From Methylobacillus rhizosphaerae (GTDB taxonomy: Bacteria; Pseudomonadota; Gammaproteobacteria; Burkholderiales; Methylophilaceae): 64,000 nt of DNA. The position numbers and the translations under genes are program-made. Shown piece by piece: positions 15,229 to 38,759 of the stretch (positions within the stretch are counted from its first letter, which is position 1; every line of letters starts with the position of its first letter). The notes under the pieces are model-generated. The model worked only from the letters and a program-made list of their open reading frames with translations. It was not told the origin of the DNA and ran no database searches. Location of the stretch: contig NZ_FZOA01000002.1 of assembly GCF_900187985.1 (NCBI RefSeq), forward strand, positions 189,805 through 253,804, written 5' to 3'.

Positions 15229-15251
15229 GTTTCTTGTTCCTTGATCTTGGC

Positions 15252-16547: not shown

Positions 16548-16619
16548 GTTCTCCATCCGAAAACTGGTTAGTTCCTTAAGGTTCATGCCTCGATCAGGCA
16601 TGATATAAACCGGTGACAC

Positions 16620-16916: not shown

Positions 16917-17849
16917 ATGGGGTTCTTTGATCTCAATGGGGATCTGGGACGCCGTTTCGGCAGCATCGGGGTTTCTCTCAATCATCCTGCTACTGAATTG
17001 CATGCCTGGCATGCCTCCACTTTTACCGCAGAAGGCCCAGGAGCCGCCCGAGCAGTGCGCCTGGCACAGAAGCTTGCAGCGTCGCTTCAGCTGGAAGGCG
17101 GCATGCACATGCAGCTGATCAATATAATTCCCGAACATGCCGGCCTGGGTTCAGGCACACAGATGGCGCTTGCTGTCGGCCTGGCGTTGAACCGTCTGCA
17201 TGATCTGGGACTGTTCATTCGCGATGTTGCCATGCTGACAGAGCGTGGTGCGCGCTCTGGAATCGGTTTGGGCACGTTTGCCACTGGTGGCGTCATCATT
17301 GATGGTGGACGAGGAGAGCATACCGTGGTGCCTCCCGTAATCGCCCGTGCAGAATTTCCTGCTGGCTGGCGCATTATTCTGATTTTTGATCATACCCAGA
17401 CGGGTGTGCATGGCGACGCGGAAATTGCCGCGTTCCGTAATCTTCCCCAATTTCCGTCAGATGCTGCGGCCATCCTGTGTCGTCATGTGTTGATGCAGGC
17501 TTTGCCTGCACTGGCGGAACAGGATCTGGACGCGTTTGGTGCGGCGATCAGGGAATTGCAGATACGAACCGGTGACCATTTTGCACCGGCTCAGGGCGGG
17601 CGTTATGCCAGCCCGAGAGTAACGGAAGTATTGTCCTGGCTGGAGTCGGCCGGAGTGGCGTGTTTCGGCCAGAGTTCCTGGGGGCCGACCGGGTTCGCTG
17701 TGTTGCGCGACGAGGATGAAGCCACATCAATACTCTCCCGCTTGAAAGAGGCATTTGCACATCATGAATCGCTTGAATTCATGCTTTGTGAAGGTCGCAA
17801 TGAAGGGGGTATCGTCAGCGATATCCCGGAAATTGCGACAGTAGTTTAA
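16917..17849 (+). CDS. beta-ribofuranosylaminobenzene 5'-phosphate synthase (beta-RFAP synthase)
   Basis: First committed enzyme of methanopterin synthesis: p-aminobenzoate plus PRPP give beta-RFA-P, CO2 and pyrophosphate. It is a GHMP-kinase-fold protein; the GHMP-like motif is EHAGLGSGTQMALAVG and the second conserved block is GARSGIGLGTFATGGVIIDG. Coordinates start at the first ATG (310 residues), but family homology (TARLHMGFFDLNG) runs upstream of it in an uninterrupted frame back to 16821 with no ATG, GTG or TTG. AGGA at 16861-16864 is well spaced for a rare ATC start at 16872. The true start is unresolved. Confidence 0.88.
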   Translation: MGFFDLNGDLGRRFGSIGVSLNHPATELHAWHASTFTAEGPGAARAVRLAQKLAASLQLEGGMHMQLINIIPEHAGLGSGTQMALAVGLALNRLHDLGLFIRDVAMLTERGARSGIGLGTFATGGVIIDGGRGEHTVVPPVIARAEFPAGWRIILIFDHTQTGVHGDAEIAAFRNLPQFPSDAAAILCRHVLMQALPALAEQDLDAFGAAIRELQIRTGDHFAPAQGGRYASPRVTEVLSWLESAGVACFGQSSWGPTGFAVLRDEDEATSILSRLKEAFAHHESLEFMLCEGRNEGGIVSDIPEIATVV

Positions 17850-18788: not shown

Positions 18789-19889
18789 GTGGCTGGCAAG
18801 CTCGTTATTGCTGCCGTTTGTGCCCGGCCGTATGTGGCCATGGCGAAGGCGGCGGGGTATGACGTGCTTGCCCTGGATATATTTGCCGATAGCGATACAG
18901 AACAATTGGCAACGCAGGTGTTTCGCTTGCCTTATGCTGATGGTGGTTTCGATCCGGCAGGTTTTGAAGCCGCATTGGCTACCATCGCAGCGCGGCATGA
19001 GGTGCTGGGTTTTGTCTACGGTAGCGGTTTTGAGGCAAATCCGCAGTTGCTTGAAACGGCGGCTCACTATTTCCCCGTAGTTGGTAATAGTGCCAGCGTG
19101 GTAAAGCAGGCCAAGGCAGTACCGGATTTTTTCCGGACACTGGATGCGCTGGGTATTCCGCATCCTCCTGTTTCCATGGAAGTGCCGGCGTTGTTGGCTG
19201 GCTGGCTGCATAAGCAGGCAGGTGGATCGGGCGGTACACATATCCGTCGTCTGGAGGCAGGTGGCAGGAAAAATGCAGGAAGCTATTATCAACAGGAGCT
19301 GGCCGGCATACCGGTTTCATTGTTGTTCGCGGCACATGCCGGGGATGCCCACGTGATTGGCTATAACCGGCAAAGTGTGGCGGCCCATGGTGATCTGCCG
19401 TTCCGTTATGGTGGTCTGGTGACCAATGTGGCATTGCCTGATACTTGCAGGAAAATATTGTACGTTGCTGCGCAGCATCTGACACGAGTGTTGAAACTGA
19501 GAGGGCTTAACAGTATTGACGCCATGCTGACACCAACGGGCGATACTTATATATTGGAGTTGAATCCGCGATTGACAGCGAGTGCGGGTTTGTACCACTC
19601 GATTCCCGGTTTGATGCAGCTGCATCTGGGCGAGGGGGCTTCGGCATTGGATATAGGTCGACAGGCCAGTGCGCAGGCTGTGGTATATGCCGAATATGAT
19701 GCTATCGTGCCTGAAGGACTGGAGTGGCCGGAATGGGCTGCGGATATTCCGGTAGCCGGCAGTCATATTGCAGCAGGTGATCCGCTGTGTACCGTATATG
19801 CGCAGGCGGATGGTGCGGAAGCTGCATGGCAGCTGGCACATCAAAGATTGCAGGTGATGACGGCAATGCAGCCGTTATCAGGAAGGTAA
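18789..19889 (+). CDS. ATP-grasp family protein of the H4MPT island
   Basis: 366 residues from a GTG start 4 bases after mtdB. A carbamoyl-phosphate-synthase/PurK-like ATP-grasp fold is indicated by QAKAVPDFFRTLDALGIPHP (pre-grasp lid), KQAGGSGGTHIRR (ATP-binding lysine and glycine-rich loop) and the Mg-binding YILELNPRLTASAG. Such genes recur in methylotroph H4MPT islands and are needed for or associated with the cofactors, but the ligase reaction is not settled. Candidate substrates are glutamate or a methylofuran/H4MPT intermediate (inference). No close paralogue by eye of the other two ATP-grasp genes here. Confidence 0.85.
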   Translation: MAGKLVIAAVCARPYVAMAKAAGYDVLALDIFADSDTEQLATQVFRLPYADGGFDPAGFEAALATIAARHEVLGFVYGSGFEANPQLLETAAHYFPVVGNSASVVKQAKAVPDFFRTLDALGIPHPPVSMEVPALLAGWLHKQAGGSGGTHIRRLEAGGRKNAGSYYQQELAGIPVSLLFAAHAGDAHVIGYNRQSVAAHGDLPFRYGGLVTNVALPDTCRKILYVAAQHLTRVLKLRGLNSIDAMLTPTGDTYILELNPRLTASAGLYHSIPGLMQLHLGEGASALDIGRQASAQAVVYAEYDAIVPEGLEWPEWAADIPVAGSHIAAGDPLCTVYAQADGAEAAWQLAHQRLQVMTAMQPLSGR

Positions 19890-19944: not shown

Positions 19945-20928
19945 ATGAGCGAAAGCAAGCTTGATGTCAGTCTGTGGCCTAGCGTTAATCAACTGACCAA
20001 TCCTTTGGTCAAGCACCTGATCGATAATGCCAAGGTGCTGCGTCTGCTGGTGGAAAAACTGCCAAGTGGTGCTACCGTCATTGATGCTGGCATCAAGGCA
20101 GAAGGTGGTCTTGAGGCAGGTCGCCTGATTGCCGAAATCTGCATGGGCGGCTTGGGGCATGTCAACCTGCATTCCTCCAGTACATTCCCGCATTGGTCAT
20201 GGACATTGTCTGTGCATTCCAACAACCCGGTATTGTCCTGCCTGGGTAGCCAGTATGCAGGCTGGAGTCTTGCGCATGAGAAATTCTTCTCCCTGGGGTC
20301 CGGCCCTGGCCGCGCACTGGCTGGCCGTGAAGAGCTGTATAAGGAACTGGGTTACAAGGATAGCGCGGATGCAGCTGTGTTGGTGCTTGAAAGTGAAAAA
20401 GCACCTCCGCAGGAAGTCGTAGAAAAAGTGGCGCGTGATACTGGCGTAAAGGCTGAAAATCTTACCTTCATCCTGACTCCGACCCGCAGTCTGGCGGGCA
20501 CTGTGCAGATCGTGTCACGTGTGCTGGAAGTGGCCCTGCATAAAATCCATACCTTGCATTTCCCGCTGGAGCATGTCGTGGACGGCATGGCGAGCGCGCC
20601 AGTACCGCCACCTGCACCGGATTTCCTGATCGGCATGGGTCGCACCAACGATGCGATCCTGTTTGGCGGTCATGCCCACCTATTCGTCAAGGGTAGTGAT
20701 GAAGCAGCTGCCAAGCTGGCGCAGGAACTGCCTAGCAGCGCATCGCGTGATTATGGCCGTCCTTTTGCTGAGGTGTTCAAGGCCGTGAATATGGACTTCT
20801 ACAAGATTGATCCCATGTTGTTCAGCCCTGCTGCTGTAACGGTCACCGCTGTCGAATCCGGCAAGAGCTTCACTGGCGGCAAGCTGGATGCTGCCTTGCT
20901 GGATCAATCCTTTGGCTATAGCGCATAA
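19945..20928 (+). CDS. mch: methenyl-H4MPT cyclohydrolase
   Basis: 327 residues; hydrolyses methenyl-H4MPT to 5-formyl-H4MPT. Family features seen: [48 protein letters not shown] with [10 protein letters not shown], and the C-terminal [24 protein letters not shown] is preceded by GGGAAATGAAAA, 56 bases after the ATP-grasp gene. It links MtdB to Fhc in the formaldehyde-to-formate route. Confidence 0.96.
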
Positions 20929-20932
20929 ATAA

Positions 20933-21856
20933 GTGAACCAGCGTATTCCGGTTTTTACCGACGATCCGGGCTGGCATGGCAAACGCCTCAAGGAGGCGTT
21001 TGCTGCACGTGGTTGCGAGGCTGTATTTGTTTCACTCAAGGAGTGTGCATTGCGTCTCGCTAGCGGCGAGCAGCCAGCTGTCCTGATTCCCGGGTTTGAA
21101 CATGAACTGCCTGCGGGTGTGTTTGTTCGAGGAGTCCCGGGTGGCACATTGCAGCGTGTGATTGCCCGGCTCGATATCCTGCATGCACTCAAGATGCTGG
21201 GTGTGGTGGTCTACAACGATGGTAATGCGGTAGAGCGTACCGTTGACAAGGCCATGACCAGTTTCCTGCTGCATCTGAACCGGGTACCGACACCGCAGAC
21301 CTGGGTATGTGAGTCCCGCTACCAGGCGCAGGAAATCTATCTCAGGGAAACCATGGCCGGACGCCAACTGGTAATCAAGCCTCTGTTCGGATCGCAAGGG
21401 CAGGGAGTGCGTAAACTGACCAGCAGTACCGTTTTTCCTGTCCCGATGGAAGAGCATGTGGATGGCTTGTATTACCTGCAGACATATATAGATAGCGGCG
21501 AAGGCGCCTGGCATGACCACCGGGTGTTTGTGATCCGTGGGCAGGCCGTGGCTGCCATGATCCGCCATGGCAGCCATTGGGTGAACAATGTGGCGCAGGG
21601 TGGTCGCTGCGAAGCCATTGCTGCTGAAGGCGAACTGGCACAGCTGGCCGAGGCTGCGGCACGTGCGGTGAATGTTGATTACTGTGGCGTAGACATCATC
21701 CGCGACCGGGATGGCAGGCTGTATGTGCTGGAAGTCAACAGCATTCCCGCATGGAAGGGCCTGCAGGGAGCAACCGGCCTGAATATAGGTCAATGCCTGG
21801 TCGATGACTTCCTATCCTGCATGCATAGTCAACCTGTATTGACGGTCGCTTCATGA
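20933..21856 (+). CDS. RimK-like ATP-grasp ligase of the H4MPT island
   Basis: 307 residues from GTG, 4 bases after mch. The ATP-grasp domain is RimK-like: VYNDGNAVERTVDKAMTSFLLHLNRVPTPQTW, VIKPLFGSQGQGVRKL (ATP-binding Lys and loop), RVFVIRGQAVAAMIR, and the metal site YVLEVNSIPAWKGLQ. RimK/MptN/CofF relatives add glutamates to proteins or cofactors. The position right after mch is the same as that of a conserved gene I recall from other methylotroph islands. Adding glutamate to H4MPT or methylofuran is a plausible but unproven role. It ends in an ATGA overlap with the next gene. Confidence 0.85.
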   Translation: MNQRIPVFTDDPGWHGKRLKEAFAARGCEAVFVSLKECALRLASGEQPAVLIPGFEHELPAGVFVRGVPGGTLQRVIARLDILHALKMLGVVVYNDGNAVERTVDKAMTSFLLHLNRVPTPQTWVCESRYQAQEIYLRETMAGRQLVIKPLFGSQGQGVRKLTSSTVFPVPMEEHVDGLYYLQTYIDSGEGAWHDHRVFVIRGQAVAAMIRHGSHWVNNVAQGGRCEAIAAEGELAQLAEAAARAVNVDYCGVDIIRDRDGRLYVLEVNSIPAWKGLQGATGLNIGQCLVDDFLSCMHSQPVLTVAS

Positions 21857-22683
21857 ACACACTACAAATTTCCGAAGCATTCCGTGCTGCCTGCATAGCG
21901 GAACTGACCAGCCTCAAGCCCGGCAACGTTCACATCTTTGCTGATGGACATGGCATGGTGGTACAACAGTTCATCCATAGCGCCGAGGCTGTGGCTGCAG
22001 TCATTGCAGAGCCCGGGCTGTCAGTCGGGCAGCGCATCCTCAATGCCGTGGAAGCCACCTGGAAAGTGGTGGACTGCAATACCAATCTTGGTATCGTGCT
22101 GTTGTCCGCTCCCCTGATCAACGCAGTCCTGCTGCCGGAGGCGGGCGCGCTGCAGCAACGTGTGCAACAAGTGCTGGAACAGCTGGATGTCCAGGATGCC
22201 GGACTGGCATTCAAGGCCATTGCGCGCGCAGCCCCCGGCGGCTTGGGGAAATCCGATACGCATGATGTGCACGACGTACCGCAAGTCACTTTATTGCAAG
22301 CCATGCAGGCGGCGCAGGATCGCGATCGCATTGCCTGGCAATATACCCACGGCTTTGAGGACATCTTTGGTATCGGAATAAAGACCTATGCCGAGGCCAT
22401 GGAGCGCTGGCATAACCCGGCCTGGGCAACCACGGTGCTCTACCTGACATTCCTGCAGCATTTCCCCGACAGCCATATCCAGCGCAAATACGGCCTGGAA
22501 CAGGCTGAGGCCGTCAGTCGCCAGGCTGGTGAACACCTGGAAGCATTGCTGTCGCATGAAAACCCAAAACTGTATCAGCGCACCTTGCTGAGTTTTGACG
22601 CAGAGCTGAAAGTGCAAAAGCTGAATCCGGGAACCAGTGCCGACCTGACAGTCGCCACCTTGTTGGCTTGCGCATTACAGTAG
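21853..22683 (+). CDS. triphosphoribosyl-dephospho-CoA synthase (CitG/MdcB)-like protein of the H4MPT island
   Basis: 276 residues related to CitG/MdcB, all-alpha enzymes that transfer a ribosyl group onto dephospho-CoA. Visible: ACIAELTSLKPGNVHIFADGHGM near the start (family LKPGNV motif), NTNLGIVLLSAPL, and LGKSDTHDVHDVP. No citrate or malonate lyase genes are near, so the ancestral role is unlikely. The CitG chemistry (phosphoribosyl transfer using ATP) would suit building the ribose-phosphate side arm of H4MPT, which is inference. It is coupled to the ATP-grasp gene by ATGA. Confidence 0.85.
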   Translation: MNTLQISEAFRAACIAELTSLKPGNVHIFADGHGMVVQQFIHSAEAVAAVIAEPGLSVGQRILNAVEATWKVVDCNTNLGIVLLSAPLINAVLLPEAGALQQRVQQVLEQLDVQDAGLAFKAIARAAPGGLGKSDTHDVHDVPQVTLLQAMQAAQDRDRIAWQYTHGFEDIFGIGIKTYAEAMERWHNPAWATTVLYLTFLQHFPDSHIQRKYGLEQAEAVSRQAGEHLEALLSHENPKLYQRTLLSFDAELKVQKLNPGTSADLTVATLLACALQ

Positions 22684-25267: not shown

Positions 25268-25558
25268 TTGCCTGTTGATCTGAGGATTGAACTTCTGCTC
25301 AAACCCATGCACTAACCAGCCGTTATACATGATATTCAGGTTCAGGATTTCATGGAGTGCCAACATTGATGGCGAGCTTTCTCAATTTTTGTAAGGAAGC
25401 AAATTATTAATGGGGAAATTCACAAAATCGTCATAATATTATGTATAATATTTGCAGATTTTTAGGCTTGACGTTAAACAGACGTGAGGCAGTTTGATGG
25501 CATAGCTAACCAAGCAATGTCGACGTGTTTCTACGGAAACTTTATATTGGAGAATGAA
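25268..25558 (+). promoter_or_regulatory. fae promoter and long leader region
   Basis: 291-base gap. A TATAAT element at 25444-25449 follows an AT-rich stretch with a weak -35 (TTCACA, spacing 19). This gives a leader of about 100 bases before the fae ATG, which has GGAGAATGAA just upstream. No gene is seen. Confidence 0.4.
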
Positions 25559-26095
25559 ATGGCAGTTATTGATCGCGTTTTAGTAGGTGAAGCACTTGTT
25601 GTTGACAACCGTCCTGATGGCAGTGGCCTGGATCTGCTGAACGTTGCTCACATCGATCTGATTATCGGACCACGTGGTAGCGCTGCAGAAGACGCTTTCT
25701 GCCGTACCCTGACCGATCAAAAAGAAGGCGTAAACGGCCTGTTGGCAATTGTTGCTCCTAACCTGATGGTTAAGCCAGCGACTGTAATGTTCAACAAGGT
25801 AACCATCAAGAACGGCAAGCAAGCTGTTCAAATGTTCGGCCCTGCACAACGTGGTGTTGCGTTGGCAGTGATGGACTGCGTTGCTGATGGCACAATTCCT
25901 CAAGAAGAAGCTGATGACGTGTTCATCTCCGTAGGCGTATTCATCGACAGCCGTGCTGACATCGATGAGCGTATCCAGGAATGGAACTATCAAGCGACTA
26001 AGCAAGCAATCAAGAACGCAGTTGCTCGCGAGCCAAAGGTAGCTGACGTACTGAAGGCTTACAAGGAATCCGCTCACCCATTCCAAGCTAAGTAA
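25559..26095 (+). CDS. fae: formaldehyde-activating enzyme
   Basis: 178 residues; speeds condensation of formaldehyde with H4MPT to methylene-H4MPT. Start MAVIDRVLVGEALV with a good ribosome binding site; the longer frame upstream is leader. Conserved blocks: NVAHIDLIIGPRGSAAEDAFC with the catalytic histidine (H31 here), VAPNLMVKPATVMFNKVTI and KQAVQMFGPAQRGVA. Between VGEALV and the His there is an extra stretch of about nine residues (rich in D, G and N) compared with the Fae sequences I know, and VFIDSRADID replaces the usual VFIHW-type segment. May be a divergent Fae. Strong codon bias. Confidence 0.93.
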   Translation: MAVIDRVLVGEALVVDNRPDGSGLDLLNVAHIDLIIGPRGSAAEDAFCRTLTDQKEGVNGLLAIVAPNLMVKPATVMFNKVTIKNGKQAVQMFGPAQRGVALAVMDCVADGTIPQEEADDVFISVGVFIDSRADIDERIQEWNYQATKQAIKNAVAREPKVADVLKAYKESAHPFQAK

Positions 26096-26218: not shown

Positions 26219-26923
26219 TTACGCCAGTGCCATGTCGTACAACATGGTGCTTGTGATCGTGCCATCGTGCAGGGCGCTGGCAATCAGGGCGCCGCTGATG
26301 CCCTTGTCCTTTAATGTCTGCAAATCTGCCAGGTGGCGCGTGCCGCCAGCAGCGTAGAACTGATGTGTTGGGGATTGCTGTCTGAAATGATCCAGCCGTG
26401 CAAAATCAGGCCCGGCCTGGCTGCCCACATGTGGCAGGCTCATGACAATGACATGCTCAGGCCACAGGCTGCTGTCTTCCAGCAGCGCTTGCGGGCCTTG
26501 ATAACCTTGTAGGGTAAAGTCCAGGGAGAGGATGGCCTGGCCGTTGCAGGCATGAAGCAGCTCCTGCCAGGTGGCGATGTCGGGAAGCGTTTCTGAACCG
26601 ATCACCGGGCGCATGCGCGGCAGCAGCCACGGTTGCAGCTCATGCATCGAGCGGATACCTGCATCAATCCAGATTTCCAGCACTGGGTATTGCTCAAGCA
26701 ACGCCTGCACCTGCTCAAGATGATGCCCACGTTGCTGGATGGCATCCAGGTCGGCGATATAAAGCGTCGGGAATGGGTATAATCCAAGCAATGCATCCAA
26801 CACAGGCTCAACCTGACTGCCTTGGCACAGGTGGGATGTGATTGGCATGTAATGCGCGCGGTCACCTTTGCGCGCATGCACAACCAGCCCTTCCTTGAGA
26901 TCAATCACTGGTATGACACGCAC
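26219..26923 (-). CDS. HisA/HisF-like TIM-barrel protein of the C1 cofactor island
   Basis: 234 residues from a GTG with GAAGGAAACAAT just upstream; this start matches the conserved barrel beginning VRVIPVIDLKEGLVVHARKG, the phosphoribosyl-isomerase pattern. Also seen: LYIADLDAIQQRG, EIWIDAGIRSMHEL, and YAAGGTRHLADLQTLKDKGISGALIASALHDG. A normal HisA sits in the his operon; this one is divergent to cofactor genes, and such HisA homologues recur in methylotroph islands. Function unknown; an isomerase step in H4MPT or methylofuran synthesis is inferred. Its start region overlaps that of the divergent ATP-grasp gene. Confidence 0.85.
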   Translation of the reverse strand: MRVIPVIDLKEGLVVHARKGDRAHYMPITSHLCQGSQVEPVLDALLGLYPFPTLYIADLDAIQQRGHHLEQVQALLEQYPVLEIWIDAGIRSMHELQPWLLPRMRPVIGSETLPDIATWQELLHACNGQAILSLDFTLQGYQGPQALLEDSSLWPEHVIVMSLPHVGSQAGPDFARLDHFRQQSPTHQFYAAGGTRHLADLQTLKDKGISGALIASALHDGTITSTMLYDMALA

Positions 26924-27944
26924 ATTGTTTCCTTCTTCAACATCACAATCCAAGCCGGTTCGTGTTCTGGTATACGAATATATTACTGGAGGGGGATTAT
27001 ACCGCGAGGAGATTCCTGCCGCCTTGGCGCAGGAGGCGGTATTGATGCGGGATGCCATGCTGTCCGCCATGCTTGCCTTGCCGGACGTACAAGTGCTTTC
27101 CCTGCACGATTCGCGTTTGTCTGCCCCTGATCAGGCAACAGGCTGCCATGTATTGCAAGAATCCGAGCATCCCCTGCAAGCCTTGCAGGCATTGATCGCA
27201 GAAGCGGACCTGGTCTGGCTGGTGGCGCCGGAAACAGGTGGTGTGTTGCAACAACTGAGTGCAATGGTGCTTGATGCAGGCAGGCAGCTGCTTTCCAGTG
27301 CTCCGGATGCTGTTGCGTTGGCAACCAGCAAATGGCAGACCTACCTGCATTTGAAACAGCATGGTCTGCCCATGGTAGAAACGGCGCAATGGCCAACATA
27401 CCTGGCAGCAGGGCAGGGCTGGGTCATCAAACCGGACGATGGTGTAAGTTGTGACGGAACAAGACTGGTGACAGATCAGCAAGCGCTGCAACGCTGGCTG
27501 GCCCAGGATCATGCCGGTGAAATCATCCAGCCGTACATGGCAGGCACTGCCGCAAGCTTGTCCATGTTATGCCGCCATGGGCAGGCATGGCTGTTGAGCG
27601 TCAACCAGCAATTGATCCATATTGCAGACGGACATATCCACTACCGCGGCAGTGTGGTCAATGCAGATCAGGCACATTGGTCTGCGTGTGCCCAAATCGC
27701 CAGCCAGGTGGCGGCTGCGGTGCCGGGCCTGTTCGGCTATGTAGGCGTGGATTTGCTGCTGGGTGAAAATGGTCAGCTACACGTGCTGGAAGTCAATCCG
27801 CGCCTGACGACTTCTTTTGCCGGGCTGGAGGCGGCAATCGCCTATAACCCGGCACGGTTGCTGCTGGACTTGTTCTATAATGAAAACTTCATGCTGCCCC
27901 TGGAATTGCAGCGCAATAAAATCGAAATCAAGCTGAATGACTGA
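26913..27944 (+). CDS. ATP-grasp protein, tyramine/tyrosine-glutamate ligase (MfnD)-like
   Basis: About 343 residues. Conserved core starts at RVLVYEYITGGGLYREEIP; the exact start is uncertain (ATG at 26913 or TTG at 26925, neither with a strong ribosome binding site). ATP-grasp features: ALATSKWQTYLHLKQHGLP, GWVIKPDDGVSCDGTRLV and the metal site LHVLEVNPRLTTSFAGLE. The archaeal MfnD joins glutamate to tyramine in methanofuran synthesis; next to MfnF-like and MfnE-like genes this assignment is likely, with tyrosine rather than tyramine possible in methylotrophs. Overlaps the next gene by 8 bases. Confidence 0.82.
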   Translation: MTRTLFPSSTSQSKPVRVLVYEYITGGGLYREEIPAALAQEAVLMRDAMLSAMLALPDVQVLSLHDSRLSAPDQATGCHVLQESEHPLQALQALIAEADLVWLVAPETGGVLQQLSAMVLDAGRQLLSSAPDAVALATSKWQTYLHLKQHGLPMVETAQWPTYLAAGQGWVIKPDDGVSCDGTRLVTDQQALQRWLAQDHAGEIIQPYMAGTAASLSMLCRHGQAWLLSVNQQLIHIADGHIHYRGSVVNADQAHWSACAQIASQVAAAVPGLFGYVGVDLLLGENGQLHVLEVNPRLTTSFAGLEAAIAYNPARLLLDLFYNENFMLPLELQRNKIEIKLND

Positions 27945-29010
27945 AACAAATTCACCCCGGCATTATCTCGGTTGGGATATCGGCGGAGCCAATCTCAAAG
28001 CCGCCCTGGTTCGTGCTGATGGCGTGGCCCTCAAGGTGGTGCAGGTGCCGTGTCCGCTCTGGCAAGGGCTGGATCAACTCGATGCCGCGCTGGATGCCGC
28101 AATGGGCCAGTTTGACGTGGTAGTGGACCGGCAACAGGTCACCATGACCGGAGAACTGGCGGATATCTTCCCTGACAGGGCAACAGGGGTTGAGGAGATT
28201 GCCTCGCGCCTGCACGCGCGTCTGCCGGGAGATGTAAAGTTTTTTGCAGGCAGGCAAGGTTTTGTCAGCCTGGAGCAGGTAAGCGGGCATAGCCACGCAA
28301 TTGCCTCTGCCAACTGGCTTGCCAGTGCGGCCTTCGTTGCGCGTAAATTGCAGCAGGGCTTGTTCATTGATATCGGCAGCACCACGGCGGACTTCGTCCT
28401 GCTGCGTGATGGACAATTGCTCAACCTGGGGCAGACCGATGCTGAGCGCATGCAACACCAAGAACTGGTTTACAGCGGTGTTGTACGCACCTCCTTGATG
28501 GCCTTGGCTTCCAGCATCCCGTTTGCTGGGCAATGGCAGAGTGTGGCGGCTGAACATTTTGCGACAACCGCCGATGTGTATCGTCTGACCGGCGAACTGG
28601 AACCGGCAGAAGACATGGCGGCCACGGCGGATGGCGCAGGCCGTTCCCTTGAAGAAACCTGCCGCCGCCTGGCGCGTATGGTTGGTTGCGATGCAGCAGA
28701 TGCAGACCAATCTGCCTGGCAATACCTGGCACAGGCATTCCGCCAGCAGCAATTGAACCTGTTGCGCCATGCAGTCCAGCGCCACTTGTCACGCAACCTC
28801 ATCTGCCCGGGTGCGCCATTCATTGGCGCAGGGGCAGGGGCTTTCCTGGTGCGTGAATTGGCACAGCAACTGGGTCATGAGTTTATTGCTGCAAGCTCAT
28901 TGATACAGGCTGATTCAGATACAACCCGGCATTGGGCAGGCGTGTGCCTGCCAGCCTATGCAGTGGCCCATCTGGCCACGTCATCCACAAACGCAGAACC
29001 ATCATGCTAA
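27937..29010 (+). CDS. H4MPT-linked C1 pathway protein, MfnF-like (hydantoinase/oxoprolinase family)
   Basis: 357 residues of the ASKHA/hydantoinase A-like family. N-terminal phosphate loop YLGWDIGGANLKAALVR, second segment GLFIDIGSTTADFVLLRDG, and C-terminal PFIGAGAGAFLVRELA. Archaeal MfnF condenses the aminomethylfuran diphosphate with glutamyl-tyramine in methanofuran assembly; bacterial homologues carry the name H4MPT-linked C1 transfer pathway protein. ATG overlaps the upstream ATP-grasp stop by 8 bases and its own stop overlaps pabB by 7, so the genes are translationally coupled. Confidence 0.85.
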   Translation: MTETNSPRHYLGWDIGGANLKAALVRADGVALKVVQVPCPLWQGLDQLDAALDAAMGQFDVVVDRQQVTMTGELADIFPDRATGVEEIASRLHARLPGDVKFFAGRQGFVSLEQVSGHSHAIASANWLASAAFVARKLQQGLFIDIGSTTADFVLLRDGQLLNLGQTDAERMQHQELVYSGVVRTSLMALASSIPFAGQWQSVAAEHFATTADVYRLTGELEPAEDMAATADGAGRSLEETCRRLARMVGCDAADADQSAWQYLAQAFRQQQLNLLRHAVQRHLSRNLICPGAPFIGAGAGAFLVRELAQQLGHEFIAASSLIQADSDTTRHWAGVCLPAYAVAHLATSSTNAEPSC

Positions 29011-30389
29011 GACGAGCACTACCATATCACGCTGATAGTTCAGCCCTGTTTGCCAGAATTGCACATCAACCCTGGGCCATCTATCTGGATAGCGGGCGTC
29101 CCGGCAATGAGTATGGCCATTACGATATCCTGGTCGCTGATCCGGTCATGACCCTGACCACCCGCGACGGCGTGACCGAGCTGCAGCGGCAGGGAGAAAC
29201 CACGCTGCACCACGATGATCCCTTCCTCTTGTTGAAACAGGTGTTGAAAGCTTATCCACGCCTGGCATCCGACCTGCCTTTCACAGGGGGCGCAATAGGT
29301 TATTTCGGCTATGACCTGGGCCGTACCCTGGAAAAACTGCCTGAACAGGCACAGGATGCCGAACAGATACCGCAGATGATGGTGGGCATCTACGACTGGG
29401 CTGTCGTCGTCGATCATCGCCGGCAGCAAACCTGGCTCATCTGCTGCGCCATCACCGAAGAGCGCAAGGCCGGCTGGAACAAGTTATGCGCCTTGTTTGA
29501 TCAACCATTTGATGAACCGACACAAGCTGCCTTCCAGGTGACGTCTCTCGTCAGCTCCAATTTTGACGAAAACACCTATGCTCGTGCGTTTGAGAAAATC
29601 CAGCGCTACATTCACGAAGGCGATTGTTACCAGGTCAACCTGGCCCAGCGTTTCCAGGCCGAGGCAGCAGGCGATGCCTGGGCGGCATACCGCGTATTGC
29701 GCAGCATCGGCTCCGCGCCGTTCATGGCGTTCATGAACCTGCCGCAGGTGCAGATATTGTCCGGTTCGCCAGAACGCTTCCTGCAAGTGAAGGGATTACA
29801 TGTTGAAACCCGGCCCATCAAGGGCACGCGTCCGCGCTCCAGCGATCCGCAGGAAGATGCCAGGCAGGCGCAGGAACTGCTGTCCAGCCTCAAGGACAGG
29901 GCAGAAAACCTCATGATCGTGGATCTGCTGCGTAACGATATTGGCAAAAGCTGCGCCATTGGCTCAGTGCGTGCAGATCGCCTATTCGCGCTGGAAAGCT
30001 ATACCAATGTGCACCACCTCGTCAGCGTCATCACCGGCAAGCTGGATGACCACAACGAAGCTGTCGATCTGCTGCGTGGCGCGTTTCCCGGTGGCTCCAT
30101 CACCGGTGCGCCCAAACTGCGCGCCATGGAAATTATCGAGGAACTGGAACCGAACCGCCGTGGCGTCTATTGCGGGTCAATCGGCTATATCGGTTTTGAT
30201 GGCAACATGGACACCAATATTGCCATTCGCACAGCAGTATATTCGCATGGCAGAATCCGTTTCTGGGCAGGAGGTGGTATCGTAGCGGATTCAGAAGTGG
30301 ATAAGGAATACCGGGAAACCTGGGACAAGGCATCCACCATGCTGCAACTCGTCGAACATTTTCGGAGCGATCAAGATGTGGGTAATTAA
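29004..30389 (+). CDS. pabB: aminodeoxychorismate synthase component I
   Basis: 461 residues from MLRRALPYHAD, whose ATG overlaps the upstream stop. Chorismate-binding enzyme making 4-amino-4-deoxychorismate from chorismate and ammonia on the way to p-aminobenzoate. Seen: YQVNLAQRFQAEA, the ETRPIKGTRPR block, MIVDLLRNDIG, and GSITGAPKLRAMEIIEELEP then GSIGYIGFDG (catalytic region). p-Aminobenzoate is used by beta-RFAP synthase for H4MPT as well as for folate; its place among cofactor genes suggests dedicated supply. Confidence 0.93.
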   Translation: MLRRALPYHADSSALFARIAHQPWAIYLDSGRPGNEYGHYDILVADPVMTLTTRDGVTELQRQGETTLHHDDPFLLLKQVLKAYPRLASDLPFTGGAIGYFGYDLGRTLEKLPEQAQDAEQIPQMMVGIYDWAVVVDHRRQQTWLICCAITEERKAGWNKLCALFDQPFDEPTQAAFQVTSLVSSNFDENTYARAFEKIQRYIHEGDCYQVNLAQRFQAEAAGDAWAAYRVLRSIGSAPFMAFMNLPQVQILSGSPERFLQVKGLHVETRPIKGTRPRSSDPQEDARQAQELLSSLKDRAENLMIVDLLRNDIGKSCAIGSVRADRLFALESYTNVHHLVSVITGKLDDHNEAVDLLRGAFPGGSITGAPKLRAMEIIEELEPNRRGVYCGSIGYIGFDGNMDTNIAIRTAVYSHGRIRFWAGGGIVADSEVDKEYRETWDKASTMLQLVEHFRSDQDVGN

Positions 30390-31005
30390 GCTGGGGGGGA
30401 GCCTGCTTGGCTCACCAGAACTGAACCTGTGGTTGGACCTTGTGGCACGCCATGGTGACGGCAAAGTACTGATAGTGCCTGGCGGTGGCGTATTTGCAGA
30501 CACCGTGCGCGATGCGCAAATCAACACCGGCATAGATGACGCCACTGCGCATCGCATGGCCGTCATGGCAATGGATCAATATGGCGTACTGATGACCGGA
30601 CTGGATACGCGCCTGGTGACAGCCAGCAGCGAACTGGAAATCGCCGAACGCGGCTGGCAGCATCGCGGCATCGTCTGGCTGCCAAGCCACATGGTGTGCG
30701 CCGATGACACCATCGCCATGAACTGGAGCATCACCTCCGATAGCCTGGCAGCTTACCTTGCCGCCAAAATGAATGCCGAACACCTGATTCTCGTCAAATC
30801 CTCACGTCCTGATGCAGATCAGCAAGTATCATTGGAAAAGCTGACCAAGGAAGGATTCGTCGACAGCGCATTCGGTGATCATATCGCCGGCAGGCCATTT
30901 CACACCTGGGTGGTCGGGCGGCAGGACTGTACCGCATTCAACGAAGGATTCAACGAAGAAGAGCTGGGCCGCGTAGGCCTGCCAGTACGTTGTGCTTGGA
31001 ACTAA
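30376..31005 (+). CDS. amino acid kinase family protein, MfnE-like
   Basis: 209 residues, aspartokinase/UMP kinase fold: MWVIKLGGSLLG at the start (phosphate loop), IVPGGGVFADTVRDAQ and HLILVKSSRPD. Archaeal MfnE phosphorylates aminomethylfuran-methyl phosphate to the diphosphate, the substrate of MfnF; a homologue is recurrent in methylotroph C1 islands. The start overlaps pabB by 14 bases. Assignment rests on fold and neighbourhood and would need a phylogeny. Confidence 0.8.
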   Translation: MWVIKLGGSLLGSPELNLWLDLVARHGDGKVLIVPGGGVFADTVRDAQINTGIDDATAHRMAVMAMDQYGVLMTGLDTRLVTASSELEIAERGWQHRGIVWLPSHMVCADDTIAMNWSITSDSLAAYLAAKMNAEHLILVKSSRPDADQQVSLEKLTKEGFVDSAFGDHIAGRPFHTWVVGRQDCTAFNEGFNEEELGRVGLPVRCAWN

Positions 31006-31018
31006 GAGGAGAAAGACC

Positions 31019-31399
31019 ATGAGTGAAATAACTGAACGTGTATATACAGAAGCAGAAATCAATACCAGGCTGGCAGCAGAACTGCCGCATTGGTATTACG
31101 AAGATGGCTGGATTCGCCGCAAATACAAAACCAGCGGCTGGAAAGCTACCCTCATGGTCGTCAACACAGTAGGACACCTTGCCGAAGCCGCCTGGCATCA
31201 CCCGGATTTAACTGTCTCCTATGCCTTCGTCATCGTTAAGCTCTGCACCCACACCGCAAAAGGCATTACCGATAAAGACTGGGAGCTGGCGCGCAAAATT
31301 GAATCCGTCATCCAGTGGCAACCTGCCCAGGAAGGCGGCGCACTCGAAGGCACCCCCAACGACGATGCCCGCTTCAAATACCTGAAATACGACAACTGA
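31019..31399 (+). CDS. pterin-4a-carbinolamine dehydratase family protein
   Basis: 126 residues, with AAGAGGAGAAAG immediately upstream of ATG. Family signature seen as WRRKYKTSGWKATLMVV-like (IRRKYKTSGWK), then VGHLAEAAWHHPDLTVSYAFV, where H-x(n)-HHPDL is the active-site block, and KLCTHTAKGITDKDWELARKIE. Dehydrates 4a-hydroxypterins. No phenylalanine hydroxylase gene is near, so a role with H4MPT or another pterin is inferred from position at the end of the cofactor cluster. Confidence 0.9.
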   Translation: MSEITERVYTEAEINTRLAAELPHWYYEDGWIRRKYKTSGWKATLMVVNTVGHLAEAAWHHPDLTVSYAFVIVKLCTHTAKGITDKDWELARKIESVIQWQPAQEGGALEGTPNDDARFKYLKYDN

Positions 31400-31642: not shown

Positions 31643-32711
31643 TTATCCTTTGATTTGACTGTCTGACTGTTGGTTATGGTCGGTTCCATCAACAAGGTAA
31701 TGATTTGCCATTGACTCGACTTCGGCGCACGCTTTTAAAAGCTCATCGAACGGCACTGAATGACCAATCATGATTTCGTCGGCCAGCATGGCGCTGTAGT
31801 CTTGCTCTAGAGCAACCTTGGCTTTGGCCTGTCGGGACGATTTTTAAATTACCTGTCGCTGCGGCTGCATAGTCGATGACTTGGCCTCCAGCGTCCTTTT
31901 CGATAAAGAAATATGACTTATGACTGGCCACTGCTATGGCTACGTCGCGGTCGGCAATGACCGAGGAAAAATCAGGACTGCGGGCAATTGCGGCCAGATC
32001 ATGCCAGTGCCGCGCGTAGCGTTCGCCACGAATTCGTCCTTGTGCGCAGAAAACATGCGCTGCCGTAGCCTTTTCCCAGAATGTTCGACTGACGTTCATT
32101 ACTCGCGGTAAGGCAGTTGGGAACATTATGTCTGGGATGTACTCGGTGATATCGCAGGCAACCTCATGTATATGATGGGGTTCCCCAGTGGCCCGGCCAC
32201 CAAATTCCAGTGTGACGACTGGCGCAACGTAACCTGTGCCTTGCATCAATGCAGGATATCGCAGCAGTAGTTTGTCATTATCTTGGCCACCAAGCTCAAT
32301 CTGTGCTTTGAGATGGTCTCGCTTCAATGCTTGCTGCAGAACAGGCAGCACTTCACTGTTGATCCAATCAGGTAGCCGGCTTCGGACAGCCCTGGTCCAT
32401 TTGTTGGCTTGGCTACGGCTGGTTGGTAACTCTCCATCATCTCCAAGCAAATCTGGAATCAGCTTGCGAATATCGTACGTGAGGTCGATATCTTCCGAAA
32501 AACGGTCAATGATTTTGTAGACCTTGGAAAGCGATGTGCCCCCCTTGAAGGTGAGGTCATCCGTTAACCGCGAGCCGAAAAGGGCGTGTAGAGCCCAAAC
32601 CAGCCAGATGTCTTTTTCCAGAAGATGAGCAGGGCGGCCTGATTGGGCGCGGGCATATTCCAGAGCTTCTCGTTGATCTGCTTTGCTGAGGTCGAAAAAG
32701 GATTCAGCCAC
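31643..32711 (-). pseudogene. AbiEii-type nucleotidyltransferase toxin, frameshifted near the C terminus
   Basis: Nucleotidyltransferase of type IV toxin-antitoxin systems. GTG at 32711 has AAGGAAG upstream and overlaps the antitoxin stop by 8 bases. Key motifs are intact: FKGGTSLSKVY and the metal-binding SEDIDLTYDI. Around 31830-31850, beside an A5 run, the frame jumps: the open frame continues into a nonsense tail stopping near 31743, while the natural continuation (SSRQAKAKVALEQDYSAML, then ADEIMIGHSVPF) is in another frame ending at 31643. The toxin fold is largely preserved but the C-terminal region is disrupted, unless this is a sequencing error. Confidence 0.78.
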
Positions 32712-33300
32712 GCATGGCTTCCTTGCCAATGGCTTGAGCTATCCAGCTTGGCAGACTGGCCCGTGAGGATGTCAGGGTTTGCCACTCGGAGCTGGAGAGA
32801 GTGCGGCGCAGTGATCTTAAGGACTTGTCCGCGTGAGTTGGACCCATCCAGGCCAGAGCACGCACTGCTGCACCTGCTGGCCCTGAGCCGAGCGCCATCA
32901 TCCAGCGTGGAGCATGCTTGATGAGCACGGTTGAATGACCAATTGTCAGTTCGCGCGTCTTTCCAGATGTGAGGTAAACCTCACGGATGGGTACTTGTTG
33001 AGTTAATCCCAGGACATTAGCTGAGCTGGCACCATGCGGCACGACAACCTCGCCATTTTGTTCAGCCAGTGCCTGAATCACTTTCTTGGGAGAGGGCGCG
33101 CGCGCGCCAAAGCGGCTGGACACCGGGGCGACGTAAGCGCCTCGTGCGACACGTAGCAGTTTTCCTTCCTTGCTCAATCGGGAGAACGCCTGGTCAATAG
33201 CGGCGCGACTACCGAGGTGCAGGAATTCCTTGGGCGACAGGACACCTCCTTCAGGGAGGGAATGTGCTTGCTTCAGTATAGCTTGGGGTAGTGTATTCAT
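32704..33300 (-). CDS. AbiEi/DUF6088-family antitoxin
   Basis: 198 residues from MNTLPQAIL, with AAGAGG upstream; a longer open frame above is low-complexity sequence from the G-rich tract. The N-terminal winged-helix part is visible as GVLSPKEFLHLGSRAAIDQAFSRLSKEGKLLRVARGAYV, followed by the C-terminal domain with VVVPHGASSANVLGLTQQVP and REVYLTSGKTRELTIG. Such proteins repress their operon and neutralise the AbiEii nucleotidyltransferase. Directly upstream of, and overlapping, the toxin gene. Confidence 0.85.
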   Translation of the reverse strand: MNTLPQAILKQAHSLPEGGVLSPKEFLHLGSRAAIDQAFSRLSKEGKLLRVARGAYVAPVSSRFGARAPSPKKVIQALAEQNGEVVVPHGASSANVLGLTQQVPIREVYLTSGKTRELTIGHSTVLIKHAPRWMMALGSGPAGAAVRALAWMGPTHADKSLRSLRRTLSSSEWQTLTSSRASLPSWIAQAIGKEAMRG

Positions 33301-33812
33301 AGTGTGCCTCTTTAGTAAGAAACTATATATTAGTTTCTGACATTTTAGAAGTGACTCTGGAACATGACGACATTCCAGATTAGGGCCAGTGGAATGGGAG
33401 GTTGGAGATGGGATGGTAGGTAGTGAGTGCAAGGGTAGGGTGATATGGATGGCAGAAGGATGTGGGTGAGGAGTGACAGGGAAAGAGTGCGGAGTGACAG
33501 AGGGAGGGTTTGGAGTGAAGGGTGAAGGTGTTGGAGGGAAACATGGGAGTGTAAAAAAAGGAGAGTTTCCTGAGGGGTGTTGGAGAGGGGGTTTTGTGTT
33601 GGGATGAGGGGATATGGAATTGACAGTCCCATGTTGAGGCAGCAAAGGGGGGGGTACTGCAATTTCTGCAGGTTTACCTGAATACAAACAGATTTTTGGC
33701 GGTTTCGAGTTTAGGTAGATGATTTATGCCAGTTATCAGGCAGGAGTAAGAGCGGTATTGATGAGTCATAAAAGCGTCAAAAAAATAGTTGAACTTTTTT
33801 GTTATAAGGCAA
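33301..33812. other. gene-free stretch with a strongly G-rich plus strand (33385-33660)
   Basis: About 510 bases without a credible gene. From 33385 to 33660 the plus strand is almost all G, A and T, with many GGG and GGGG runs and an eight-G run near 33648, and very few C residues; the minus strand is C-rich. The open frames on the minus strand here are proline/histidine/serine low complexity and not coding-like. Possible G-quadruplex or Rho-loading region. Confidence 0.6.
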
Positions 33813-34153: not shown

Positions 34154-34663
34154 ATGCAAGAAATTGTACTCATAGCATGGGGGCTTGTTGTTGCTGGTCA
34201 AGATTTTTCAAAAAGAAAAATTTCCAATTATTTAACATTAGGTGTTGTGATAGTTGGAGTGCTATGGCTACTGTTGCGTGGAGTTTCATTTAACGGTCAG
34301 TCTGTGATGTCGGTGATATTGGGGCTGGCCGTTGCTTCACTTTTAACTATTCCCGGTTATGTAACGAAAACACTGGGAGCTGGTGACGTTAAACTTCTTT
34401 GGGCAATTGCTGCTTTATGCGGTTTGGAATTGATGCTTGGCAGTTTTATTGTGGCATCTGTTTCCGTAGGAGTGATTTTTCTGTGTTCAACAGGGCTTAA
34501 TATGTTTCTTCAGTACTATGGGCGTGAGTGGCGGCCATTTTATTGGAATGGACAGAAGCGTTATATCCCGTTTGGCACGGCATTAGGTTTCGGGATGATT
34601 ATTTTTGTCTTGAAGCCGGATTTTCTGGGGATAAGGGGATCGCTGGCATGGTTATGGCAGTGA
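34154..34663 (+). CDS. tadV: Tad-type prepilin peptidase (TadV/CpaA, A24 family)
   Basis: 169-residue aspartic membrane protease that processes Flp and the TadE-like pseudopilin. Catalytic aspartates are seen in VAGQDFSKRKISNYL (loop after first membrane segment) and LGAGDVKLLWA, with several further hydrophobic segments. It follows flp by 19 bases and overlaps tadE by 16. Confidence 0.93.
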   Translation: MQEIVLIAWGLVVAGQDFSKRKISNYLTLGVVIVGVLWLLLRGVSFNGQSVMSVILGLAVASLLTIPGYVTKTLGAGDVKLLWAIAALCGLELMLGSFIVASVSVGVIFLCSTGLNMFLQYYGREWRPFYWNGQKRYIPFGTALGFGMIIFVLKPDFLGIRGSLAWLWQ

Positions 34664-35130
34664 AGGGGAAAAAACAACAAGGTGCGGCTGCCATTGAGTT
34701 TGCTCTGGTATTTGTACTTTTTCTGGTTGTTCTCTACGCAATTATAAGTTACGCAATCATTTTTCTCTTGTGGGCTGGTTTGAACTTTGCAGCTTCTGAA
34801 GGTGCGCGTTCTGCAATTGCAGTTGATCCATTGGCTTTTTCAAATGATGCAGCATATGTAGCGGCGCTGGAAGCACGTGCGCACGCGCGAGTAGACGAAG
34901 CATTGGTGTGGATGCCGCCACTGATCAGGACAAAAATCCAAGGAGCTTATGGCAGTCAAGTGTCATCGGTAGTAGAGGACGCTACACGGGGAAAAGTCAT
35001 TAACGTACGCTTGATATATCCCAATTATGTGAGTGATCCAGTGGTGCCTATTTTAAATTTTCCAGGTTATGGCCCGTTGTTGCCTACGGGGTTTGAGATG
35101 AGAGGTTGGGCAAGTGTAAGTCTGGGATAA
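34648..35130 (+). CDS. tadE: TadE-like pseudopilin
   Basis: 160 residues from the ATG with AAGGGGAT upstream. N-terminal GAAAIEFALVFVLFLVVLYA is the processed hydrophobic helix of TadE/TadF-type minor pilins (cleavage expected before the AIEF segment), followed by a soluble C-terminal domain. The overlap with tadV is typical of translational coupling. Minor pilins help assembly or display of the Flp fibre. Confidence 0.9.
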   Translation: MVMAVKGKKQQGAAAIEFALVFVLFLVVLYAIISYAIIFLLWAGLNFAASEGARSAIAVDPLAFSNDAAYVAALEARAHARVDEALVWMPPLIRTKIQGAYGSQVSSVVEDATRGKVINVRLIYPNYVSDPVVPILNFPGYGPLLPTGFEMRGWASVSLG

Positions 35131-35190
35131 ATGCTGAAACGAAGCTGGTTTCAGGGTGAGGCTGAATTTAACAGTGGAGTACAATAAAAA

Positions 35191-36141
35191 ATGAGTGGAA
35201 GTGTGTTAAGGGTTATTGCAATCCTTTTGTTTATCGGGGCAGTTTTAATGGGGTGGTATGGTTTGCGAGCCGGTTCCCCGGCGCCAGCGCCTGTCGTTGC
35301 AGAGCCGCCACCTGTCGTCAAATATAATCAAGTTATTGCCAGCCAGGATATCGCGGCTGGTCACGTCATTCTTTCTGAAGATCTTGCGATCGAGGAAGCA
35401 GAAACTCGCAATCCCCTGGCTTATACCTCAACTGCCGATGTAATCGGTAAAGTGGTTGAAGTTGATGTGGTCAAAGGTAGCGTAATTCAACCGAATTATT
35501 TCCCACAACGCGGTGAAGCTGCTCTGCTACTCAAGAGTGGTGAGCGCGGTGTGGCGGTCAAAGTGGACGAAGTCATTGGCGTCGGCGGTTTTGCCAAGCC
35601 CGGTGACCATGTTGATGTGTTGGTGTACCTGAATGGAAATGGTAGCTCTGATAGTGAAAGTTCCGCCCAGACCATTGTCAAGGATGTGCGCGTATTGAGT
35701 TACGGACAGACCTTGCAGGATGCTGCTAAGCCTGCTGAACAGACTGATGCTGCCGAATCAAAGTTGGCCCTGCCTACCTCCTCTGATGCCAAGAAGAAAG
35801 AGGAAGAAGAAAAGAAAAAAGCATTGGAAGGGCGCTCTGCCGTGTTGGCAGTGAAAGAAGAAGATGTCTCGCGCCTGATGTTGGCTGCCAGCGGTGGCTC
35901 CCTGCGTTTGTCCCTGCGTGGGGTGATGCCAGAACCAGAGCCTGAAAAAGCAGCTGATGGCAAAGTCGTTAAAGAAAAAGTCAGCGACTTCATTGCATTG
36001 CCTGAAATTGCGAATGTAAAAACCAAGACTGTGGCAGTGAAGACTGTAGCAGGTAAAAAAGTCGTGCAGTCTGCTCCAGTGACCAGTGTGGTAATCCACG
36101 CTGGTGAGAAAACCGAAACTGTCAGCTTCAAGGGACAATAA
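35191..36141 (+). CDS. cpaB: Flp pilus assembly protein RcpC/CpaB
   Basis: 316 residues. One N-terminal membrane segment (VIAILLFIGAVLMGWYGL), then an SAF domain (VIASQDIAAGHVILSEDLAI, DVIGKVVEVDVVKGSVIQPNYF), a RcpC/CpaB core (GERGVAVKVDEVIGVGGFAKPGDHVDVLV), and a charged lysine/glutamate-rich linker around residue 200. Acts in the periplasm at the outer membrane secretin. It is 60 bases downstream of tadE and is followed directly by the secretin gene. Confidence 0.94.
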   Translation: MSGSVLRVIAILLFIGAVLMGWYGLRAGSPAPAPVVAEPPPVVKYNQVIASQDIAAGHVILSEDLAIEEAETRNPLAYTSTADVIGKVVEVDVVKGSVIQPNYFPQRGEAALLLKSGERGVAVKVDEVIGVGGFAKPGDHVDVLVYLNGNGSSDSESSAQTIVKDVRVLSYGQTLQDAAKPAEQTDAAESKLALPTSSDAKKKEEEEKKKALEGRSAVLAVKEEDVSRLMLAASGGSLRLSLRGVMPEPEPEKAADGKVVKEKVSDFIALPEIANVKTKTVAVKTVAGKKVVQSAPVTSVVIHAGEKTETVSFKGQ

Positions 36142-36142
36142 A

Positions 36143-38751: not shown

Positions 38752-38759
38752 GTTGAAGC

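Follow-up and report, generated by a model that had tools for sequence, protein, structure and literature searches.

The orf17 locus

The window, i.e. the whole stretch of 64 000 nt of Methylobacillus rhizosphaerae DNA analyzed here, carries a C1 island whose genes run in the order fhcCDAB, beta-RFAP synthase, mtdB (named by its position), myfA, mch, myfB, orf7, tal, hps, hpi and fae, followed by orf17 on the opposite strand (Table 1). The orf17 frame starts with GTG at 26923 and encodes 234 amino acids; the plus-strand frame over the same positions contains stops. Beyond orf17 lie mfnD, mfnF, pabB, mfnE and a carbinolamine dehydratase-like gene, and orf17 is divergent to this methylofuran-type operon, as a sequence-only reading of the locus had described. 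Methylofuran is the one-carbon carrier of methanol-consuming bacteria and methanofuran its counterpart in methanogenic archaea; one-carbon units are bound to them where methylotrophic formaldehyde oxidation ends and where methanogenesis from CO2 begins.

The likely start of mfnD overlaps the start of orf17 (26913–26923), so that the two genes stand head-to-head with zero spacer and each promoter must sit inside the opposite gene. The same abutting arrangement of orf17 and mfnD(-mfnF) was found in Azoarcus, Azospirillum and Thiodictyon plasmid records, and in a Phyllobacterium record the gene next to orf17 is the MfnF-like one. Abutting orf17/mfnD starts recur in alpha-, beta- and gammaproteobacterial records. 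The mfnB gene of the source genome lies elsewhere, on a different contig, where DUF6513 and DUF447 genes precede it (L233, G000:C12, 9106–11896). The order DUF6513-DUF447-mfnB is the same in the loci L111 and L116, which ties two uncharacterised proteins to mfnB. Elsewhere in the window two genes at 31743–33687 (minus strand) resemble, by eye, an AbiE-type toxin–antitoxin pair, and a run of genes beside the C1 island at 34154–40016 (plus strand) resembles, again by eye, a Tad/Flp pilus assembly cluster.

Table 1. Genes and sites of the C1 island around orf17 (positions in the window)
Feature	Position	Strand	Evidence
fhcC, fhcD, fhcA, fhcB, formyltransferase/hydrolase complex, methylofuran user	11841–16619	-	TIGR03122, TIGR03119, TIGR03121 above cut-off; TIGR03129 307.3 bits, slightly below 327.8
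beta-RFAP synthase (methanopterin branch)	16917–17849	+	TIGR00144 151.2 bits, above cut-off
myfA (orfY), ATP-grasp	18789–19889	+	PF02655 58.1 bits; named by position
mch	19945–20928	+	TIGR03120 421.1 bits, above cut-off
myfB (orf5), glutamate ligase	20933–21856	+	TIGR00768 160.8 bits, above cut-off; best match MptN, below cut-off; named by the order mch-orf5-orf7-fae-orf17
orf7, CitG-like	21853–22683	+	PF01874 231.2 bits
fae	25484–26095	+	TIGR03126 203.3 bits, above cut-off
orf17, HisA-like (beta/alpha)8-barrel protein	26219–26923	-	Frame, PF00977, residues, AF2 model, fold match
mfnD-like ATP-grasp ligase, head-to-head with orf17	26868–27944	+	NF040722 94.6 bits (cut-off 400), PF02655 120.4 bits; likely start ATG 26913
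Putative ribosome-binding site AAGGA, upstream of orf17, within the mfnD 5' end	26930–26934 (26934–26930)	-	Sequence
mfnF (orf9)	27937–29010	+	TIGR03123 345.6 bits, above cut-off 244.1; NF040623 150.4 bits, below cut-off 520
pabB	28932–30389	+	TIGR00553 378.8 bits, above cut-off
mfnE-like kinase (orf21)	30376–31005	+	NF040622 87.9 bits, below cut-off 300
Pterin-4a-carbinolamine dehydratase-like protein	30992–31399	+	PF01329, NF002017 above cut-off

The protein matches the Pfam family PF00977 (His_biosynth) with 91.8 bits (cut-off 23.6). Its best NCBIfam match is the HisA/HisF-related model TIGR00734 with 102.3 bits, under the cut-off of 179.85, and the true-HisA model TIGR00007 gives 62.3 bits and does not reach its cut-off of 228.95. 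An AF2 model built with 28 relatives (pLDDT 96.4, pTM 0.93; a single-sequence model with pLDDT 58 was set aside) fits HisA/PriA structures with Z up to 27.4 and an rmsd of 2.1 over 224 residues, and a HisF structure with Z 23.4. The description as a clear HisA/HisF relative in the sequence-only reading is thus borne out. On family, gene order and sequence we identify the gene as the orf17 known from Methylorubrum extorquens. A search of the window with PF00977 returned no second match, so the earlier statement that no histidine genes are near holds as far as this one family reaches. The two strong PF00977 matches of the genome (288 and 271 bits) are adjacent on contig C14 and represent its own hisA and hisF; a genome lacking its own hisA, the case that the sequence-only reading had reserved, is not what we found.

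Orf17 forms a separate clade with a residue pattern of its own

For the phylogenetic analysis we used 44 of 88 Orf17, 22 of 29 HisA and 14 of 19 HisF rows, the truncated copy L162 being left out of both the tree and the full set. Bacterial and archaeal Orf17 fall on one side of one branch with an SH-aLRT support of 99, and the corresponding values for HisA and HisF are 97 and 99. It is new here that Orf17 makes up a third clade, next to those of HisA and HisF, with members in bacteria and archaea; with so well conserved a family and place the gene is no orphan, as it had been called earlier.

Eleven residues are invariant in all 88 Orf17 sequences (D8, R22, Y25, Y55, D58, D87, E111, S133, D135, G193 and G194), and H219 is kept in 87 of them. 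The window protein carries D8, R22, Y25, D58, D87, E111, S133 and D135 and is without the Asp of the HisA RDG motif. Of the HisA catalytic pair D7/D176 (Salmonella enterica numbering, mapped by counting along pairwise alignments) the first is kept as D8, while the D176 position is V166 in the window protein and is occupied in the family by Val (82 of 88), Ile (4), Thr (1) and, in the remaining one, Met. We take D7, D176 and Thermotoga maritima D127 to be the catalytic residues of HisA, with which the mutant names in PDB titles agree. Compared with 29 HisA sequences, Thr171 is replaced by Leu, Met or Ile, the invariant Trp is lost, Gly79 (Gly in 21 and Ala in 8 HisA) is replaced by D87, and E111 is new behind the Gly-Thr/Ser of strand 4; at position 215 in strand 8 the Gly of HisA is Ala, Gly or Ser in Orf17.

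These replacements bear directly on the Amadori-type isomerisation that had been suggested for the protein, and on the comparison of its two phosphate-binding sites with those of true HisA that had been recommended as a check. One site agrees, since the strand 7 Gly-Gly is kept, and the other does not, carrying an Asp and a Glu (D87 and E111) in 88 of 88 Orf17. With the RDG Asp, the Thr and the Trp lost and a phosphate site remade, an Amadori rearrangement as originally worded is not supported. However, the two remaining HisA aspartates, D8 and D135, make acid–base chemistry on a different phosphorylated substrate possible. No Lys column is conserved in at least 75% of the 88 Orf17 rows, and thus a counterpart of the PLP-binding lysine of aminotransferases such as MfnC proper was not found, which renders a PLP or class I aldolase mechanism unlikely.

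Orf17 co-occurs with methanofuran biosynthesis

We analyzed the distribution of Orf17 in two archaeal samples, from the Thermoproteota and the Halobacteriota, which we take to be the GTDB phyla of the Bathyarchaeota genome G161 and the Archaeoglobus sp. genome G159, and in the class of the window's own organism, taken from its relatives to be the Gammaproteobacteria. Orf17 and HisA were split by the TIGR00734 score, at more than 117 bits in the first sample (next score 98) and more than 100 bits in the second (next score 94.8). Twenty doubtful places were compared with separate Orf17, HisA and HisF profiles, and 18 turned out to be Orf17, one HisA (the 94.8-bit match) and one a decayed Orf17-type copy. 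RFAP synthase was called at 80 bits or more (57 genomes, of which 45 reach the curated cut-off as such or when joined).

In the 151 Thermoproteota genomes we observed Orf17 in 22 of 24 genomes with MfnB versus 0 of 127 others (Fisher p 1.8e-24, with related genomes treated as independent). MfnB was clear in these 24 genomes. G211 exceeds the Pfam cut-off as the 25th genome, but with mfnB in fragments only, and we counted it among those without MfnB. Among the MfnB genomes, G266 has matches at the ends of two contigs, including the mfnB contig, and in G182, which has MfnF, Orf17 was not found. Orf17 occurs in 0 of 39 genomes that have RFAP synthase without MfnB (27 at the curated cut-off), and all six MfnB genomes without RFAP synthase (no match above 25 bits) have it, some of which share gene order and therefore represent fewer than six independent cases. 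The 148 Halobacteriota genomes gave a similar picture: 111 of 116 genomes with MfnB have Orf17 (112 with a contig-edge fragment in G348) as compared to 2 of 32 others. Two genomes, G429 and G448, have Orf17 and no MfnB match. Orf17 tracks methanofuran, not methanopterin, in archaea, which is new here. In G211 mfnB is in fragments, the Orf17-type copy is in frame-shifted pieces, FwdA is kept and MfnF gave no match (L270 on G211:C66 and L286 on G211:C105), and it is likely that the methanofuran synthesis genes are being lost in parallel.

In the window's own class Orf17 was found in 12 of 14 MfnB genomes and, by score, in 0 of 100 others, 19 of which (loci L017–L035) were also covered by a profile check. 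G091 of this class, with 64 bits to TIGR00734, was missed by score and found by profile. The two MfnB genomes without Orf17 are G008, which is 75% complete and in which MfnF is also missing, and G028, in which a search of the whole genome (93% complete) did not find Orf17. In G028 fae and mfnD lie 84 bp apart with no orf17 between them (L267, G028:C189, 9637–11265). Its mptG is broken into two frames, so an assembly error may lie behind this. We considered an aminotransferase in place of orf17 in this genome and found none among six genes checked.

For a wider survey we used 80 MfnB loci, for which 50 genomes were searched for Orf17; 22 of the other 30 carry orf17 within the locus, and eight stood outside the search. 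Orf17 is present in 44 of the 50, in three of them as fragments or broken (G122, G129 and G136), and was not found in six: G137, G140–G142, G147 and G117. MfnF and FwdA were searched in 19 genomes picked mostly for missing or doubtful Orf17, so the results tell what Orf17-less genomes lack and not that both proteins occur in every Orf17 genome. In the Omnitrophota genome G137 and the Dehalococcoidia genomes G140–G142 neither MfnF nor, over the cut-off, FwdA was matched. FwdA without MfnF was seen in G147, and MfnF without FwdA over the cut-off in G117. In G133 and G154 Orf17 and FwdA are present and MfnF gave no match.

In G137 and two Dehalococcoidia the genes around mfnB do not resemble an mfn operon; they comprise mfnE together with genes for UbiA, a methyltransferase and radical-SAM/B12 proteins, or else a gene for a DHDPS-like aldolase. 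In the G137 locus (L101, 6613–12436) mfnB and mfnE lie beside the UbiA prenyltransferase, methyltransferase and radical-SAM/B12 genes, which perhaps indicates a furan-phosphate pathway other than methanofuran. In the Dehalococcoidia loci L105 (8895–10978) and L106 (9002–10984) an mfnB with a C-terminal extension directly follows the DHDPS-like aldolase gene, and MfnF and FwdA (over the cut-off) were not found.

Archaeal operons around orf17

Operons of the first archaeal phylum place orf17 next to mfnB-mfnA-mfnD-mfnF-mfnE (L234), in orf17-mfnD-mfnF-mfnE (L242, L220 and L224) or beside mfnD-mfnF-mfnE and mfnB (L218 and L235). In Methanocaldococcus (L231) and in an archaeoglobal genome (L232) orf17 is not near mfn genes. 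Among 125 of 175 neighbouring ORFs, from 18 of 23 loci, we counted MfnB 16, MfnD 13, MfnF 12, MfnE 10 and MfnA 4 times, the MfnB count being inflated because ten of the 18 loci were fetched through MfnB. Among the first 25 families listed, the sole aminotransferase-type rows are two of DegT and two of class V, with E-values of the size seen for MfnA. Within six genes of orf17 in these 18 loci there are 31 unassigned ORFs of aminotransferase size, and none of the 24 that were looked up is an aminotransferase. Every known Mfn enzyme thus has its gene beside orf17 in one genome or another, the one exception to date being the aminotransferase MfnC, which we take to be part of the in vitro reconstitution of the core pathway.

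Three loci (L226, 11805–12932; L240, 8268–9383; L242, 3253–4386) encode, near archaeal orf17, an ATP-grasp protein of the LysX/RimK type (about 375 aa) that may be involved in making the glutamyl side chain of methanofuran. Long frames in L117, L133, L011, L050 and L053 were considered as orf17 gene fusions. They have the Orf17 domain at the C-terminal end, the remainder in L117 and L133 resembles by eye a non-coding extension of the frame, and the annotated gene in L050 and L053 is short, so that we do not claim a fusion.

Proposed function of Orf17

Deletion of orf17 in M. extorquens PA1 abolishes methylofuran and leaves no methylofuran-Glu-n intermediates, and complementation restores it, while methenyl-dH4MPT is still made (PMC8141765). 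A role of Orf17 at the level of the pathway is therefore already known in one bacterium, M. extorquens. The authors nevertheless describe its role as unclear and omitted Orf17 from their proposed methylofuran pathway (PMC8141765), and among open-licence PMC papers we found none that gives the Orf17 reaction or an archaeal test of the protein. The mutant, the co-occurrence, the operons and the separate hisA and hisF of the genome agree with the assignment to cofactor assembly instead of histidine made in the sequence-only reading, and its remark that HisA relatives occur in C1 islands of other methylotrophs applies to the orthologous orf17 of M. extorquens (PMC8141765). Taken together, Orf17 very probably acts in the methylofuran/methanofuran pathway.

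Our preferred reading, to which we give a probability of about one half, is that Orf17 works on the furan branch by acid–base chemistry and probably fills the amination slot; its catalysis, substrate, step and mechanism we infer. Orf17 would be dedicated to the core biosynthesis of methylofuran (methanofuran in archaea) and would have arisen from HisA/HisF ancestors before the pathway spread between archaea and bacteria or early during that spread. Most likely D8 and D135 would move protons by acid–base catalysis, with neither PLP nor a lysine Schiff base, on a substrate with one phosphate that would be held by the kept strand 7 Gly-Gly loop. The remade phosphate site with D87 and E111 would hold or activate an amine or a hydroxyl. 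We place the step between MfnB and MfnF, since MfnB of Methanococcus maripaludis alone forms a 280-nm furan product (25–45°C, kcat 0.9–2.7 per min; PMC11365854), the mutant has nothing after the coupling and the operons are without only the amination enzyme. Most likely it is the introduction of the amine, from 4-HFC-P to F1-P, where Orf17 would either perform the amination or ready the acceptor for a borrowed aminotransferase.

Several observations count against a furan-branch enzyme. The core steps are reported to have been reconstituted in vitro without Orf17 (PMC8141765, PMC11365854), so that formally every step of the pathway is taken. General metabolism often lends its aminotransferases to other pathways, and their absence from an operon is thus weak evidence. 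The distribution has exceptions as well: G028, G182 and G117 have MfnF or the cluster and no Orf17 was found in them, and G133, G154, G429, G448 and the isolated genes in L231 and L232 also depart from the pattern. A stricter version, which we regard as quite improbable, makes Orf17 the true MfnC, a HisA-fold enzyme of PLP-free amination in which 4-HFC-P would form an imine with an amino donor, D8 and D135 would shift the proton and D87 and E111 would hold the ammonium; the 'C' position of the methanofuran operon would then be taken by an amination enzyme of a new kind. To our knowledge PLP-free transamination has no precedent in a HisA-type fold.

It is doubtful, though worth weighing, that Orf17 is instead a partner of MfnB which supplies or isomerises triose phosphate or speeds the cyclodehydration to 4-HFC-P. 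Of 79 mfnB/orf17 pairs on one contig in the Halobacteriota sample, 60, in as many genomes, lie within 400 bp and all 60 are divergent, and in 14 of the 80 MfnB loci orf17 is the divergent neighbour at 38–528 bp. Sugar phosphates are substrates of HisA-type barrels, and the orf17 mutant, which shows no later intermediates (PMC8141765), would fit such a partner too. However, MfnB makes its furan product alone (PMC11365854), and orf17 groups with mfnD-F-E and not directly with mfnB in L242, L218 and L220. Moreover, MfnB is kept in the Omnitrophota genome and the three Dehalococcoidia, in which Orf17, MfnF and, over the cut-off, FwdA were not found. This argues that MfnB does not need Orf17 for its own reaction, although the 19 genomes searched were picked mostly for missing or doubtful Orf17 and two of them, G133 and G154, have Orf17 and FwdA with no MfnF match.

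We consider unlikely a role of Orf17 together with MfnF, at the formation of the ether or later, or one as a scaffold or chaperone that would support the Mfn enzymes without catalysis of its own. The adjoining position of orf17 to mfnD or mfnF in many operons is in line with this, but the acidic and basic residues that are invariant in 88 of 88 sequences, several of them at HisA active-site positions, favour catalysis. A very improbable reading is the old suggestion for MJ_0703 that the ribofuranosyl ring is opened in an Amadori-like step of methanopterin biosynthesis; White 2011 is cited in PMC8141765 for a methanopterin role. Such a step would be the closest chemical analogue of HisA, presumably with a 5'-phosphoribosyl substrate, but the methenyl-dH4MPT of the mutant already contradicts it in bacteria (PMC8141765) and Orf17 was found in none of the 39 genomes with RFAP synthase and no MfnB and in all six with MfnB and no RFAP synthase; on this co-occurrence and the published mutant we reject it. 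The chance that Orf17 is the working or a back-up HisA of the genome is negligible, although the fold agrees and the protein belongs to PF00977 (91.8 bits), and we reject it since a full hisA–hisF pair lies on C14, the D176, T171 and Trp positions are lost and the clade is separate.

Returning to the furan-branch enzyme, our findings tie Orf17 to methanofuran in archaea too, and probably to its furan branch. Should Orf17 carry out the amination, one enzyme would be wrongly assigned in a pathway that is reported as complete.

Comparison with known systems

Orf17 resembles HisF in its fold and in H219, as 19 of 19 HisF have a His at this position, but differs by its separate clade and in the absence of the Asp that HisF has at position 166. 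With HisA/PriA (ProFAR isomerase) it has in common the fold, D8, D135 and the strand 7 Gly-Gly. It differs from them in that the RDG Asp is replaced by Val and the Thr by Leu, Met or Ile, the Trp is missing, a loop with R22 and Y25 is extra, the Gly/Ala at G79 is D87 and E111 follows the Gly-Thr/Ser of strand 4.

The Orf17 of M. extorquens (Mext_1835) is likewise a PF00977 member in an archaeal-like C1 cluster and is required for methylofuran (PMC8141765). In contrast to M. extorquens, orf17 of the window faces an mfnD-like gene; according to PMC5020050, mfnD is not recognised in Methylobacterium. The gene order of Methylosinus, mch-orf5-orf7-fae-fae-orf17 (PMC3615186), also holds in the window as mch-orf5-orf7-fae-orf17. 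Among archaea, MJ_0703 is given as a 26% homologue of Orf17 (PMC8141765), and the window protein is 28% identical to a protein of Methanocaldococcus sp. SG1, presumed to be the MJ_0703 orthologue. Unlike the curated archaeal family, the window protein stays under the TIGR00734 cut-off (102 versus 179.85 bits), yet MJ_0703 and the other archaeal TIGR00734 proteins share its clade and its invariant residues.
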